24,284 nucleotides of DNA. Source: a bacterium (GTDB lineage: Bacteria; ARS69). The stretch is taken from NCBI GenBank assembly GCA_025774805.1, contig JALGZR010000110.1:1-24284 (forward strand), in the 5' to 3' direction. The notes beneath the pieces were generated by a model, which was given only the letters and a program-made list of their open reading frames with translations, was not told the DNA's origin and ran no database searches. Shown piece after piece: positions 4,499 to 23,604 of this stretch (position 1 is its first letter; each line of letters starts with the position of its first letter). The translations under genes were made by a program, and so were the position numbers.

Positions 4499-5018
4499 GG
4501 TCCTTCACCACAGGGAGCTCCTCGAGAAGGAGGCGCGGGCCGAACGGGCCGAGGCCGAGCGCCGGGCGAACGCGCTCGAGGGGGCGATCGAGTCGGTGCG
4601 CCGGGAGAGGGGCTCCTGCCCCGAGGACGTCGGAGAAGGAGAACCGGAGGCGGTCGTCACGGAGCTCGCGCAGTGGTCCCGCTACGCGGAGGGCCTTCGC
4701 CGGCGGGAGCGAGGCCTGGAGCAGCGGCTCGCGGCGATTCGCCCGAAGTTGGAGGAGCGGATTCGAGCCCACCAGGAGATCCGAAAGGAGGTGGAAGGGT
4801 TGCGGAAGCTGAGAGCGAGGCATCTCGCGCGGCGCCGCCGCTTGCGCGAGCGGAAGGGCCAGGAGGCGATCGACGACGCGGCCTCCCGGCGAAGGATTCC
4901 GGGACCCGGCACGGAATTCCCGAAGATGACGGAGCCCGGGCACCGCGGTCATTCTGCGGAAACGGCGGGAGAGCCCGCCGGGACGGATCGGAACCCAGAT
5001 CGAGGGACGGGACGATGA
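4482..5018 (+). CDS. fliJ: Flagellar export chaperone FliJ
   Basis: FliJ is a small coiled-coil protein that inserts into the FliI hexamer like the gamma subunit of F1 and helps couple export to FlhA. The 178-residue product begins FRLDKVLHHRELLE, a recognisable FliJ start, and continues as a long, highly charged helical coiled coil to about residue 130. The C-terminal 45 residues look disordered (Pro, Gly, Thr and charge rich) and make it somewhat longer than typical FliJ (about 147). The GTG at 4482 follows GGAGGAGG at 4471-4478. It is sandwiched between fliI and a motE-like gene with overlaps on both sides. Confidence 0.9.
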   Translation: MFRLDKVLHHRELLEKEARAERAEAERRANALEGAIESVRRERGSCPEDVGEGEPEAVVTELAQWSRYAEGLRRRERGLEQRLAAIRPKLEERIRAHQEIRKEVEGLRKLRARHLARRRRLRERKGQEAIDDAASRRRIPGPGTEFPKMTEPGHRGHSAETAGEPAGTDRNPDRGTGR

Positions 5019-5620
5019 GCGGAACGGATGTTGCACAGAAGCCGCCCGAGGAAACCGCCGGTGAGGAGCAGCCCACGAAGAGGGGCGGCAACTTTCGGGC
5101 CTTCCTGAAGATCTGGCTGCCGTTCCCCGTGATCCTGGGGGCGCTCCTCTTCTTCCAGTTCAAGACCGGGAACTTGGGGAAGTCGGAGCCGCCGCCCGAG
5201 GAGGAGACGGGGGTTTTCGAGGGAGCCGGATCGGGCCTTCCCATTCTCCTTCAGGCGCTGCAGGAGGAGCGGGCGGCCCTTCAACAGGACTGGGAAGACC
5301 TTCGGTTCGCGGAGAGGCGGATCTTCCTCGAGCAGGGGGAGATCGAGGAGCGGAAGGAAGAGGTGCAGACGCTCCTGACCCGCGTGGAGGCGAAGGTCCA
5401 GGTGATGGAAGAGGAGAGGGATCGAATGCTCGGCCAGCTCGCCCGGGTCTACGAGACGATGAAACCGGACGCGGCCGCGGAGATCCTCTCGGGAGTCGAC
5501 GTCGAGACGTCGACGGAGATCATCCGGCGCATGAAGGAACGCGCCGCGGCCCAGGTGATGGCGAGCCTGGAACCGAAGGCCGCGGCCCGCATCAGCCAGA
5601 GGATGCTCCGGATTCCCTGA
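5015..5620 (+). CDS. MotE-like membrane coiled-coil protein with MgtE-N-type domain
   Basis: This 201-residue product has a charged cytoplasmic N-terminus, one transmembrane helix (about residues 31-48), a long coiled coil (about 75-145), and a C-terminal module 'MKPDAAAEILSGVD...' (about 148-195) resembling the MgtE intracellular N domain. The architecture matches proteins often encoded between fliJ and fliK in many phyla, and MotE of rhizobia, which acts as a periplasmic chaperone for MotC. MotE function here is inference. The coiled coil and MgtE-N-like module would sit outside the membrane. The ATG at 5015 overlaps the fliJ stop (ATGA). The frame is open back to 4673 but that part overlaps fliJ. 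Confidence 0.8.
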   Translation: MSGTDVAQKPPEETAGEEQPTKRGGNFRAFLKIWLPFPVILGALLFFQFKTGNLGKSEPPPEEETGVFEGAGSGLPILLQALQEERAALQQDWEDLRFAERRIFLEQGEIEERKEEVQTLLTRVEAKVQVMEEERDRMLGQLARVYETMKPDAAAEILSGVDVETSTEIIRRMKERAAAQVMASLEPKAAARISQRMLRIP

Positions 5621-5650
5621 CCCTCCTCGAAAGGCGTGGAGGACTCGAAT

Positions 5651-10853: not shown

Positions 10854-11282
10854 GTGGATCTCGGGACCATCATCGGCATCTTCATCGGGATGGGTCTCGT
10901 CTTCTCCGCCATCATCATGGGCGGAGGGATCCAGCTCTTCTTCGACGTCAACTCGCTGCTCATCGTGTTCGGCGGGGTGACGGCGGCCACGCTCATGTCG
11001 TTTCCGCTCGGCTCGGTGACGCAGGTGCCCGGGGTCGTCCTCAAGGCCTTCATGCACAAGGCCGCGCCGCCCCACGTGATCCTGGAGCTCATCACGAAGT
11101 ACGCCGAGATGGCGCGCCGCGACGGAATGCTCGCGCTCGAGGACGAGGCCGAAAAGGCGCCCGACGAGTTCCTCCGCAAGGGTATTCGCCTCGCGGTCGA
11201 CGGCACCGACGCGGAACTCATCGGGATGATCCTCCGTCTTGAGCTCCGGTCCCTCGGATGCTCGGCACTCTCATCGGACTGA
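10854..11282 (+). CDS. motA: MotA N-terminal fragment (frame-disrupted motA)
   Basis: MotA is the stator subunit that with MotB conducts ions and pushes on FliG. This 142-residue ORF covers TM1 (about 5-25), TM2 (about 30-50) and the large cytoplasmic loop with 'EMARRDGMLALEDE', where the torque-relevant Arg and Glu lie. It proceeds normally to DGTDAELIGMILRLEL, then runs into eight unrelated residues (RSLGCSALSSD region) and stops at 11282. A family member would continue with about 20 more loop residues and then TM3. GTG start at 10854 with GGAG about 8 bases upstream. See the partner fragment at 11258; together they look like one gene with an internal out-of-frame deletion. Confidence 0.85.
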   Translation: MDLGTIIGIFIGMGLVFSAIIMGGGIQLFFDVNSLLIVFGGVTAATLMSFPLGSVTQVPGVVLKAFMHKAAPPHVILELITKYAEMARRDGMLALEDEAEKAPDEFLRKGIRLAVDGTDAELIGMILRLELRSLGCSALSSD

Positions 11283-11563
11283 TCCAGATGCTCCAGGTCC
11301 TCGACGACCCGAGCAAGATCGGCGGCGGAATGGCGGTTGCGCTCGTGACCTCGTTCTGGGGCGCGTTCATGGCGAACACGCTCTTCCTTCCTCTGGCCGG
11401 CAAGCTCAAGTACCGCTCCGCCGAGGAGAGGAACGTCCGGCGTCTGGTGATCGAGGGGGTCACGTCCATCCAGGGAGGGGACAGCCCCCGGATCGTGAGG
11501 GAGAAGCTCTACACGTTCATCAACCCCGGGGCGCGCGAGACCCTGGAGAAGGCGAAGAAGTAG
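11258..11563 (+). CDS. motA: MotA C-terminal fragment (frame-disrupted motA)
   Basis: This 101-residue ORF, in the -1 frame relative to the previous fragment, carries MotA TM3 (MLGTLIGLIQML), the 'DDPSKIGGGMAVAL' loop, TM4 (about 24-46, with the LPLAGKL proline) and the basic cytoplasmic tail. The frame is open upstream to 11243, where codons read APVPR before the ATG; family members read APAFGM here, so the TM3 proline codon (11246-11248) exists but lies outside any independently started product. There is no ribosome site before 11258, so separate translation is doubtful. Sequencing or assembly error, pseudogene, or programmed frameshift are the alternatives. Confidence 0.8.
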   Translation: MLGTLIGLIQMLQVLDDPSKIGGGMAVALVTSFWGAFMANTLFLPLAGKLKYRSAEERNVRRLVIEGVTSIQGGDSPRIVREKLYTFINPGARETLEKAKK

Positions 11564-18768: not shown

Positions 18769-19846
18769 CTCGAAACGGTACCGGGGTCGGACCCCCGGAG
18801 AGGCGATGAGGAAAGCGAGACAGGACCTGGGAGACGACGCCCGGCTCGTGAGCGCGCGCCGAGTCTCCTCCGCGGCCGAGCCTCCCCTCTACGAGGTTCG
18901 GGTGACGTCCGCGCCGGAGCCCTCCCCCCTCGTCGGGGGAGGCCTCGACGAGCTCCGGCGCGAGATCGAGTCCCTCCGGGAGACGATCAGATCCCTGGCC
19001 GCGGCCCCCGCCGGGCCTCGGGCCGAGCCGGAGCGAGAAGCGGAGGAGGAGGACGTCGATCCGGATTTCGCGCGCTGGCTCGAGGTGATGCGGCGCCGCG
19101 GCATCGGGCGCGCGGCGGCCCGGCGGATCGTGCGCGGCACGCGCGCCCGCCTGCAGTCCCGGGCCGAGGAGGATCCCTTCCACGCGCTGCAACGGACGAT
19201 CGCCGCGCAGTTTCCGCGGGCCGAGGACGAGGATCCCCTCGGGGAGCGGTCGACGATCTTCCTCGGCTCGGCCGGAGCGGGGAAGACGACGGTCTTGGCC
19301 AAGGTCGCGGCCGAGGAGGTGGCCCGGGGCCGGCGCCCGGTTCTCGTCACCACGGACGGCGAGAGCCTGGCGGGAGAGGAGACCTTGTACGCGGTCGCGA
19401 CCGCTTTGGGACTCCGACTGGAGACCGCGTTCCTCGACGGCCAGCTCGAGTCGCTGATCGAGCGCCTCGGACCGGGGGAGACGATCCTCGTCGACACGCC
19501 CGGTCGGACCCCGTACGAGCGCGAGGGGCTGTCGGCGCTCGAGGCCGTGGTGCATTCGGTGCCGGGCGCGGAGGTCGTCCTGGTGATTCCGGCCACCACC
19601 GATGCGGAGGAGGCCCGAATCCTCCTCGAGGCGTACGAGACGCTCGGAGTCGAGCGGATCGTGCTGACGAAGATGGATGTGCTCGCCCGCCCCGGACGTC
19701 TCGTCGACCTGGCGCGGACGATCACGCGTCCCGTCGCCTGGGTCACGTACGGACGAGGCGTGCGGGGAGCGAGCTCACCACCCTCGGATCCGCGGATCAT
19801 CGCGCGAATCCTGGGGACCGAGCTCGCCGTGGCGAAGACGGCCTAG
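18758..19846 (+). CDS. flhF: Flagellar biosynthesis SRP-type GTPase FlhF
   Basis: FlhF is an SRP-family GTPase that sets the site, and with FlhG the number, of flagella; it is typical of polar or otherwise spatially controlled flagella. The 362-residue product has the basic N-terminal 'TPGEAMRKARQDLGDDA', a variable linker, an N-domain (about 80-160) and a G-domain with P-loop GSAGAGKTT (170-178), DTPGR (246-250) and TKMD (304-307). Length is near normal. ATG at 18758 overlaps flhA. The usual next gene, flhG (MinD-like ATPase), is missing; a small membrane protein gene follows instead. Confidence 0.94.
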   Translation: MMSSSKRYRGRTPGEAMRKARQDLGDDARLVSARRVSSAAEPPLYEVRVTSAPEPSPLVGGGLDELRREIESLRETIRSLAAAPAGPRAEPEREAEEEDVDPDFARWLEVMRRRGIGRAAARRIVRGTRARLQSRAEEDPFHALQRTIAAQFPRAEDEDPLGERSTIFLGSAGAGKTTVLAKVAAEEVARGRRPVLVTTDGESLAGEETLYAVATALGLRLETAFLDGQLESLIERLGPGETILVDTPGRTPYEREGLSALEAVVHSVPGAEVVLVIPATTDAEEARILLEAYETLGVERIVLTKMDVLARPGRLVDLARTITRPVAWVTYGRGVRGASSPPSDPRIIARILGTELAVAKTA

Positions 19847-22238: not shown

Positions 22239-22420
22239 GAAGGGGCCTTCCCGGACCGCGGCTTCGCTCTCCGGAACCCGCGCCCCCACCCGATTCGCGC
22301 CGACGCTCCGGCCCCCCGGCCGCGGCCGCCGCCCCGGCTCCGAGCCCGGTGCGCGTCGGTCGGGCCCGGCTGAACTTCGAGCTCTTCCGCCGGCGGACCC
22401 GCGAGGGGAGCGGATCCTGA
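22235..22420 (+). CDS. Possible small Pro/Arg/Ala-rich protein
   Basis: This 61-codon ORF exactly fills the space between its neighbours. Its GTG overlaps the previous stop (GTGA) and its TGA shares a base with the next ATG (TGATG). About 80% of its codons end in G or C, as in nearby genes. The product is basic and low complexity, ending 'RLNFELFRRRTREGSGS', with no membrane segment. There is no good ribosome site, and such composition can keep frames open by chance, so it might be non-coding spacer. Alternatively it is a coupled small protein. No family recognised. Confidence 0.4.
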   Translation: MRRGLPGPRLRSPEPAPPPDSRRRSGPPAAAAAPAPSPVRVGRARLNFELFRRRTREGSGS

Positions 22421-23604
22421 TGGCGCCCGAGCCCCGTCTCCGCCCCGCGCCCGGGGAGGTCGTCACACCCTCGCCCTCCGAGCGGATCCTCGTGATCGAC
22501 GACGAGCCGAACATCCGAGACGCGATCGAGGAGTTCCTGTCGCTGAGCGGGTACGAGGTAGACACGGCCCCCGACGGGGCCGCCGGCCTCGACCTCCTGA
22601 GGCGTGGCGAGTACGACCTGGTTCTCTCCGATCTGAAGATGCCCGGCGTGACCGGTATCGCGGTCATCCAGTGGCTGAGCGAGACCCACCCCGATCTTCC
22701 GGTCATGGTGATGACCGGGCACGCCACCGTCGAGACTGCCGTCCAGGCCCTCCGGCTCGGGGCCTGCGACTATCTGCTCAAACCGTTCTCGCTCGACGAA
22801 ATCGATCGGACCGTCGGGAACTGCCTGGAAAAGCGGCGGCTCGAACGGCGCAACACCGAGCTCACCGAGATGAACGAGCGACTGCTCGACATCGAGCGCA
22901 TCAAGGACGATCTCCTCGCCACGGTGTCGCACGAGTTCCGGACGCCGCTGACCTCGATGAAGGGCTTCCTGGGCCTCTTGGATCAGCTCGGCCTCGACAA
23001 CCTCCGCCCCGATCAGATCCACGCCATCGACGCGATGCGCGAAAGCGTCGAGCGGCTCGACGTCATGATCGGGAACCTGCTCACGCTGGTGGAGAGCCAG
23101 AATGGGGACCACCCCCCGGTTCTCGGGCCGGCGCGCCTCGGGGAGTTCCTCGACGAGTACTTCCACAGGCAGGACCCCAGGAGTCTCCAACGATTCTGCC
23201 GGGTGGAGATCGACGATTCCCTGGCGGAGACCGAGGTCCTTCTCGATCACCGGCGCTTCCCGCTCGTCCTGTCGAATCTGCTCGACAACGCCTTCAAGTT
23301 CGCCCGCGTACCCGGGGAGGCGAACGTCCGCCTCCACGCCCGCCGGGAGGGTCCGAACGCGGTCCTCGAGGTCCACGACGATGGAATCGGGATCACCGGC
23401 GCGATGGGGGAGACCATCTTCGATCGATTCACTCAGGCCGACATGACGTCCACGCGGGAGCACCAGGGGGCGGGTCTGGGACTCGCGGTCGTGCGCGAGA
23501 TCGTGGCGGGACACCGGGGAACCGTCCGGCTCGTTCCTCCCGTGCTGGGGGGAGCGTCGGTCCAGGTCACCCTGCCCGCGTTCGAGGGCGGCGAGAGGAG
23601 GTGA
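22420..23604 (+). CDS. Receiver-histidine kinase protein (REC-HisKA-HATPase)
   Basis: The 394-residue product joins an N-terminal receiver domain (about 22-138; acidic Asp27/Asp28, phospho-acceptor Asp71 in LSDLKMPG, Thr99, Lys121) to a histidine-kinase core. The kinase has HisKA with SHEFRTPL (His171) and a HATPase domain with NLLDNAFKF (286-294), DDGIGI (320-325) and GAGLGL (350-355). All catalytic residues are present. There is no membrane or PAS domain, so it is a soluble kinase whose input is its own receiver, phosphorylated by another kinase. The ATG at 22420 follows GGGGAG 9 bases upstream. It lies 7 bases before fliM, suggesting a link to flagellar control or motor switching. Its partner regulator is unknown. 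Confidence 0.92.
   Translation: MAPEPRLRPAPGEVVTPSPSERILVIDDEPNIRDAIEEFLSLSGYEVDTAPDGAAGLDLLRRGEYDLVLSDLKMPGVTGIAVIQWLSETHPDLPVMVMTGHATVETAVQALRLGACDYLLKPFSLDEIDRTVGNCLEKRRLERRNTELTEMNERLLDIERIKDDLLATVSHEFRTPLTSMKGFLGLLDQLGLDNLRPDQIHAIDAMRESVERLDVMIGNLLTLVESQNGDHPPVLGPARLGEFLDEYFHRQDPRSLQRFCRVEIDDSLAETEVLLDHRRFPLVLSNLLDNAFKFARVPGEANVRLHARREGPNAVLEVHDDGIGITGAMGETIFDRFTQADMTSTREHQGAGLGLAVVREIVAGHRGTVRLVPPVLGGASVQVTLPAFEGGERR

Follow-up and report, generated by a model that had tools for sequence, protein, structure and literature searches.

The window, a stretch of 24,284 bases that is one whole contig (C69) of the draft genome G000, carries a flagellar gene cluster in which the stator gene motA, with a flgE-like gene on one side and motB on the other, is divided over two reading frames. 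This raises the question of whether the break belongs to the organism, as a lost, a two-piece or a frameshifted stator subunit, or to the assembly of its DNA.

Size and position of the loss in motA

The 5′ fragment of motA (Table 1) is MotA-like up to about position 11253 (LRLELRSL), after which it runs into a non-homologous tail, GCSALSSD, and a TGA stop codon. As the reference for the loss we used the intact motA of G004 (locus L008, 257 aa), a genome of the same family but another genus and the only one of the phylum's relatives examined that also has motA. The 5′ fragment is 71% identical to the G004 protein across 133 aa with no gap (72% for the N-terminal part of the gene), and the 3′ fragment is 79% identical. 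In a global alignment of the DNA, the two genes differ by one 64-base gap (710 versus 774 bases) and otherwise by substitutions only. The left arm tracks G004 through LRLEL-x-SL, while the right arm picks up one base into the codon preceding the ATG at 11258, where homology resumes at M157 with MLGTLIGL. The window gene therefore lacks 21 residues, 135–155 of the L008 protein, together with one further base, the first of codon 156. This bears out the preliminary description, which had reported an out-of-frame internal loss, and also its argument that a plain frameshift would not suffice; a simple frameshift is ruled out as the cause because 64 bases are missing.

Two details of that description need correction. 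It had estimated the loss at 59 or 61 bases, but the gap is 64 bases against the closest relative, and the frame change is compatible only with losses of 3n + 1 bases, which 61 and 64 fit and 59 does not. In the homologues described below, the spacing from the RH..G motif to the P-x-x-G motif is 16 residues in all 73 scorable sequences out of 80. It had also placed the resumption of homology at APVPR, which is not MotA-like, sharing just the AP with the family's APAFG; in that motif, at the start of TM3, the conserved positions are P153 (80/80 homologues), A154 (78/80) and G156 (80/80). The bases behind APVPR are better taken as the last residues (LRSL) of the left arm, seen in another frame.

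The domain searches agree with this division of the gene. The 3′ fragment matches Pfam MotA_ExbB with 51.6 bits over profile positions 61–123 of 127, whereas the L008 protein matches positions 3–123 in a single frame; neither frame of the window's motA holds the full-length domain. The 5′ fragment matches MotA_N with 22.4 bits and so falls short of the curated threshold of 27.3, but this is no sign of damage, since the intact L008 protein matches just as weakly (23.1 bits).

The join itself contains neither an N run nor a repeat of k-mer length and so points to no particular assembler mechanism, and the only direct repeat found at the breakpoints, CTCATCGG at 11217 and 11270, lies away from it. 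A deletion-favouring hairpin in the relative's sequence was considered and dropped, as its fold is not above that of shuffled sequences (z 0.80).

Table 1 Fragments of motA, the adjoining motB and frame breaks elsewhere in the draft genome
Feature	Contig (locus)	Position	Strand	Description
motA 5′ fragment	C69	10854..11282	+	GTG start, TGA stop, 142 aa; spans TM1-TM2 and the larger part of the cytoplasmic loop
Junction of the 64-base loss	C69	11254..11257	+	Left arm ...TCCCT(C), right arm (GG)ATGCTCGGC; exact breakpoint uncertain within a few bases
motA 3′ fragment	C69	11258..11563	+	In-frame ATG, TAG stop, 101 aa; TM3-TM4 and C-terminus
motB, intact	C69	11580..12278	+	MotB_plug and OmpA domains; sole MotB_plug match of the draft
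DHH-family phosphoesterase gene	C50 (L127)	5471-5648	minus	Exact 88-base tandem duplication (90 bases identical); frame broken
ispH (LytB)	C124 (L249)	~73.7 kb (L249 13700-13787)	minus	Exact 44-base tandem duplication near the 3′ end; frame broken
Family-2 glycosyltransferase gene	C1 (L114)	~19717-19730		~43 bases lost between RGYNL and GFKGI; frame change

Conserved residues in the missing stretch and the state of the two halves

The missing stretch was compared with the best 80 homologues fetched by an alignment query, a set selected for good matches that spans many phyla at 42–54% identity; an N-terminal query of genome contigs found no named close relatives. R137 is conserved in 80 of the 80 homologues, H138 in 79 and G141 in 75, and the window gene lacks this RH..G loop as well as the proline and glycine at the start of TM3. 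Our alignment pairs P153 with Pro-173 in the MotA of enteric bacteria, a residue at the beginning of TM3 that belongs to the proton path (PMC4030992). The lost loop probably also includes the counterpart of E150, a residue of E. coli MotA (PMC6079164). A MotA lacking the stretch would not be expected to function.

These residues bear directly on the possibility that the gene works as it stands. TM1-TM2 with the loop and TM3-TM4 could be made as two proteins through coupled translation: both frames are open and conserved, the second begins with an ATG exactly at TM3, and the overlap of the TGA at 11280–11282 with the ATG at 11258 fits coupling. The two pieces together, however, still lack 21 residues, including R137, H138, P153 and G156, the missing proline being, by the same alignment, the one in the proton path of the enteric protein. 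No Shine-Dalgarno sequence is obvious by eye upstream of 11258, and none of the best 80 homologues, selected as they were for good matches, is split. We regard a working two-piece MotA as highly improbable, and a stator subunit that functions as two polypeptides while lacking the end of the loop and the TM3 proline that all known relatives have as scarcely credible. Programmed ribosomal frameshifting could in principle unite the two frames, which overlap at 11243–11282, but a frameshift would leave the 21 residues absent and we noticed no known slippery motif there, so that the probability of this route is close to negligible. Both proposals founder on the same point, namely that neither restores the missing conserved residues.

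Apart from the gap, the gene shows no mark of decay. Averaged over the 80 homologues, identity is 40.4% for the N-terminal part of the window gene versus 39.3% for that of the intact G004 gene, and 53.1% versus 52.7% for the C-terminal part. Identities to G004 by codon position (77/87/50% and 80/90/58%) show the pattern of a constrained gene, like those of the neighbouring genes, and there is neither another indel nor faster change. A long-standing pseudogene is therefore rejected: both halves are conserved as in the intact relative, which leaves no period of neutral decay and indicates that the loss is either very recent or not real.

The flagellar cluster and the stator genes of the draft

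The draft genome comprises 5.1 Mb in 284 contigs and is 96.3% complete and 5.1% contaminated. On the window contig, fliF, fliG, fliH, fliI, fliK, flgD, the flgE-like gene and motB were recognised by Pfam, and fliJ gave a weak match; the order fliL, fliN, fliO, fliP, fliQ, fliR, flhB, flhA, flhF, fliA ... fliM was assigned by position and is matched in a related genome. A second contig, C144, carries intact frames for flagellin, an FlgG-type rod protein, FlgA, FlgH, FlgI, FlgN, FliD and FliS, together with an intact frame for another flagellin-like protein that is probably FlgL or FlgK. The remaining flagellar machine looks complete among the genes tested on these two contigs, and the earlier statement that no other gene of the machine is broken is correct to that extent, for the genes tested on the window contig and the flagellar open reading frames tested on C144.

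Two further genes of the window were noted. Positions 22417–23604, between fliA and fliM, encode a response-regulator plus histidine-kinase gene whose counterpart in G004 is 63% identical. Positions 4940–5620, beside fliJ and fliK, encode a protein with a weak MgtE_N/FliG_M-like C-terminus, the counterpart of which in G004 lies immediately upstream of motA; the window protein may be a MotE-like component of the flagellum.

The 96.3%-complete draft contains no second match to MotA_N or MotB_plug, both having their single match at this locus. Five further MotA_ExbB matches, all without MotA_N, are presumably of the ExbB/TolQ type. A second stator elsewhere in the genome was rejected on these grounds, and the suggestion that motility could depend on another stator found no support. 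No MotA match is present in G001, G002 and G003, which are of the same family, make up three of the five genomes of the phylum examined and include one that is 100% complete; flagellar motility seems to be patchy within this family.

The window motA is best explained as a normal single-copy stator gene beside motB, from which 64 bases may have been lost in the organism or in its assembly.

Frame-breaking indels elsewhere and the origin of the break

A genuine, very recent out-of-frame deletion would have cost the organism its MotA stator, leaving a flagellum that is built but cannot turn; it could also be a minority variant that the assembler chose. The loss is clean and affects the draft's only motA, the other flagellar genes tested are intact, as expected shortly after such a loss, and bacteria commonly lose motility through single mutations. 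A paralysed strain, which the preliminary description had also considered, is a possible outcome.

The rest of the draft speaks to the same question. Our homology survey sampled 1.16 Mb of the draft and 1.2 Mb of the related genome G002, searching the G002 open frames in the draft for single proteins matched in two frames and reading the alignments. Most candidates proved to be shadow frames or neighbouring genes and were dropped, which left two real breaks in conserved genes in the 1.16 Mb, in the DHH-family phosphoesterase gene and in the family-2 glycosyltransferase gene, the latter about 400 bases from a contig end. In the reverse direction, draft frames against G002, there was no comparable break in 274 kb at ≥40% identity. 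A third case, in ispH, came from a scan for exact close repeats, unlike the other two; this is the draft's only ispH, and the duplication touches just the final few residues of the family profile. Bacteria with the MEP pathway depend on IspH for survival. The longest close repeats of at least 40 bases in G002 have periods of 39 and 45, both multiples of three. The counts from the homology survey, two in the draft versus none in G002, with ispH added by the repeat scan, are small and would not be significant alone.

The draft further contains one 44-base N gap, a sign of scaffolding. Nearly three copies of a 46-base repeat follow a LexA-like frame on C125 (L121, 2280–2396); these are not within long open frames and were not counted as frame breaks.

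A deletion in the organism appears the less likely origin: selected loss of motility is a poor explanation for three further frame breaks by indels of similar size, all in unrelated conserved genes and one of them in the only ispH. We consider it probable, from the assembled sequence, that the motA loss is a local assembly error in a draft of metagenome type. This reading, which had been raised before as a possibility, is favoured because conserved genes of the draft have their frames broken by at least three further indels, each tens of bases long, while the reverse survey of G002 gave none. Two pieces of sequence would have been joined, either at a false overlap or with a short stretch that lacked coverage omitted, and motA would be intact in the organism itself. 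We infer that the motA break and the three other indels have a common assembly cause; against this, short tandem duplications and deletions also occur in living cells.

The observation of a split motA is therefore correct in essence, with small numeric corrections, and its meaning is most likely technical. An annotation that accepted the break as it stands would describe a flagellated yet non-motile bacterium from a rarely sampled phylum. The analysis suggests that where this draft implies a gene loss, above all through a single short indel, the loss is not to be believed without reads; a real motA deletion would amount to an ordinary loss-of-motility mutation.

Compared with known MotA stators (Pfam MotA_N, PF20560, and MotA_ExbB, PF01618), the window shares the gene order motA-motB-fliL and both Pfam regions, at 72–79% identity to the stator of the same-family relative, and differs in that 64 bases are absent, two reading frames are used, and the end of the loop and the start of TM3 are gone. 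It resembles loss-of-motility mutants with otherwise complete flagellar systems in having one motor gene broken and the rest intact; here, in contrast, genes unrelated to motility carry comparable breaks and the mutation itself is putative, as would be any loss of swimming. Metagenome assemblies have been documented to contain local errors as well as sequence that is duplicated at joins (Chen et al. 2020, PMC7111523). As in those cases, short lost or duplicated stretches break genes in otherwise good contigs of this draft, the difference being that such errors are to be diagnosed by reads failing to support the join, while the breaks reported here were judged from the assembled bases.
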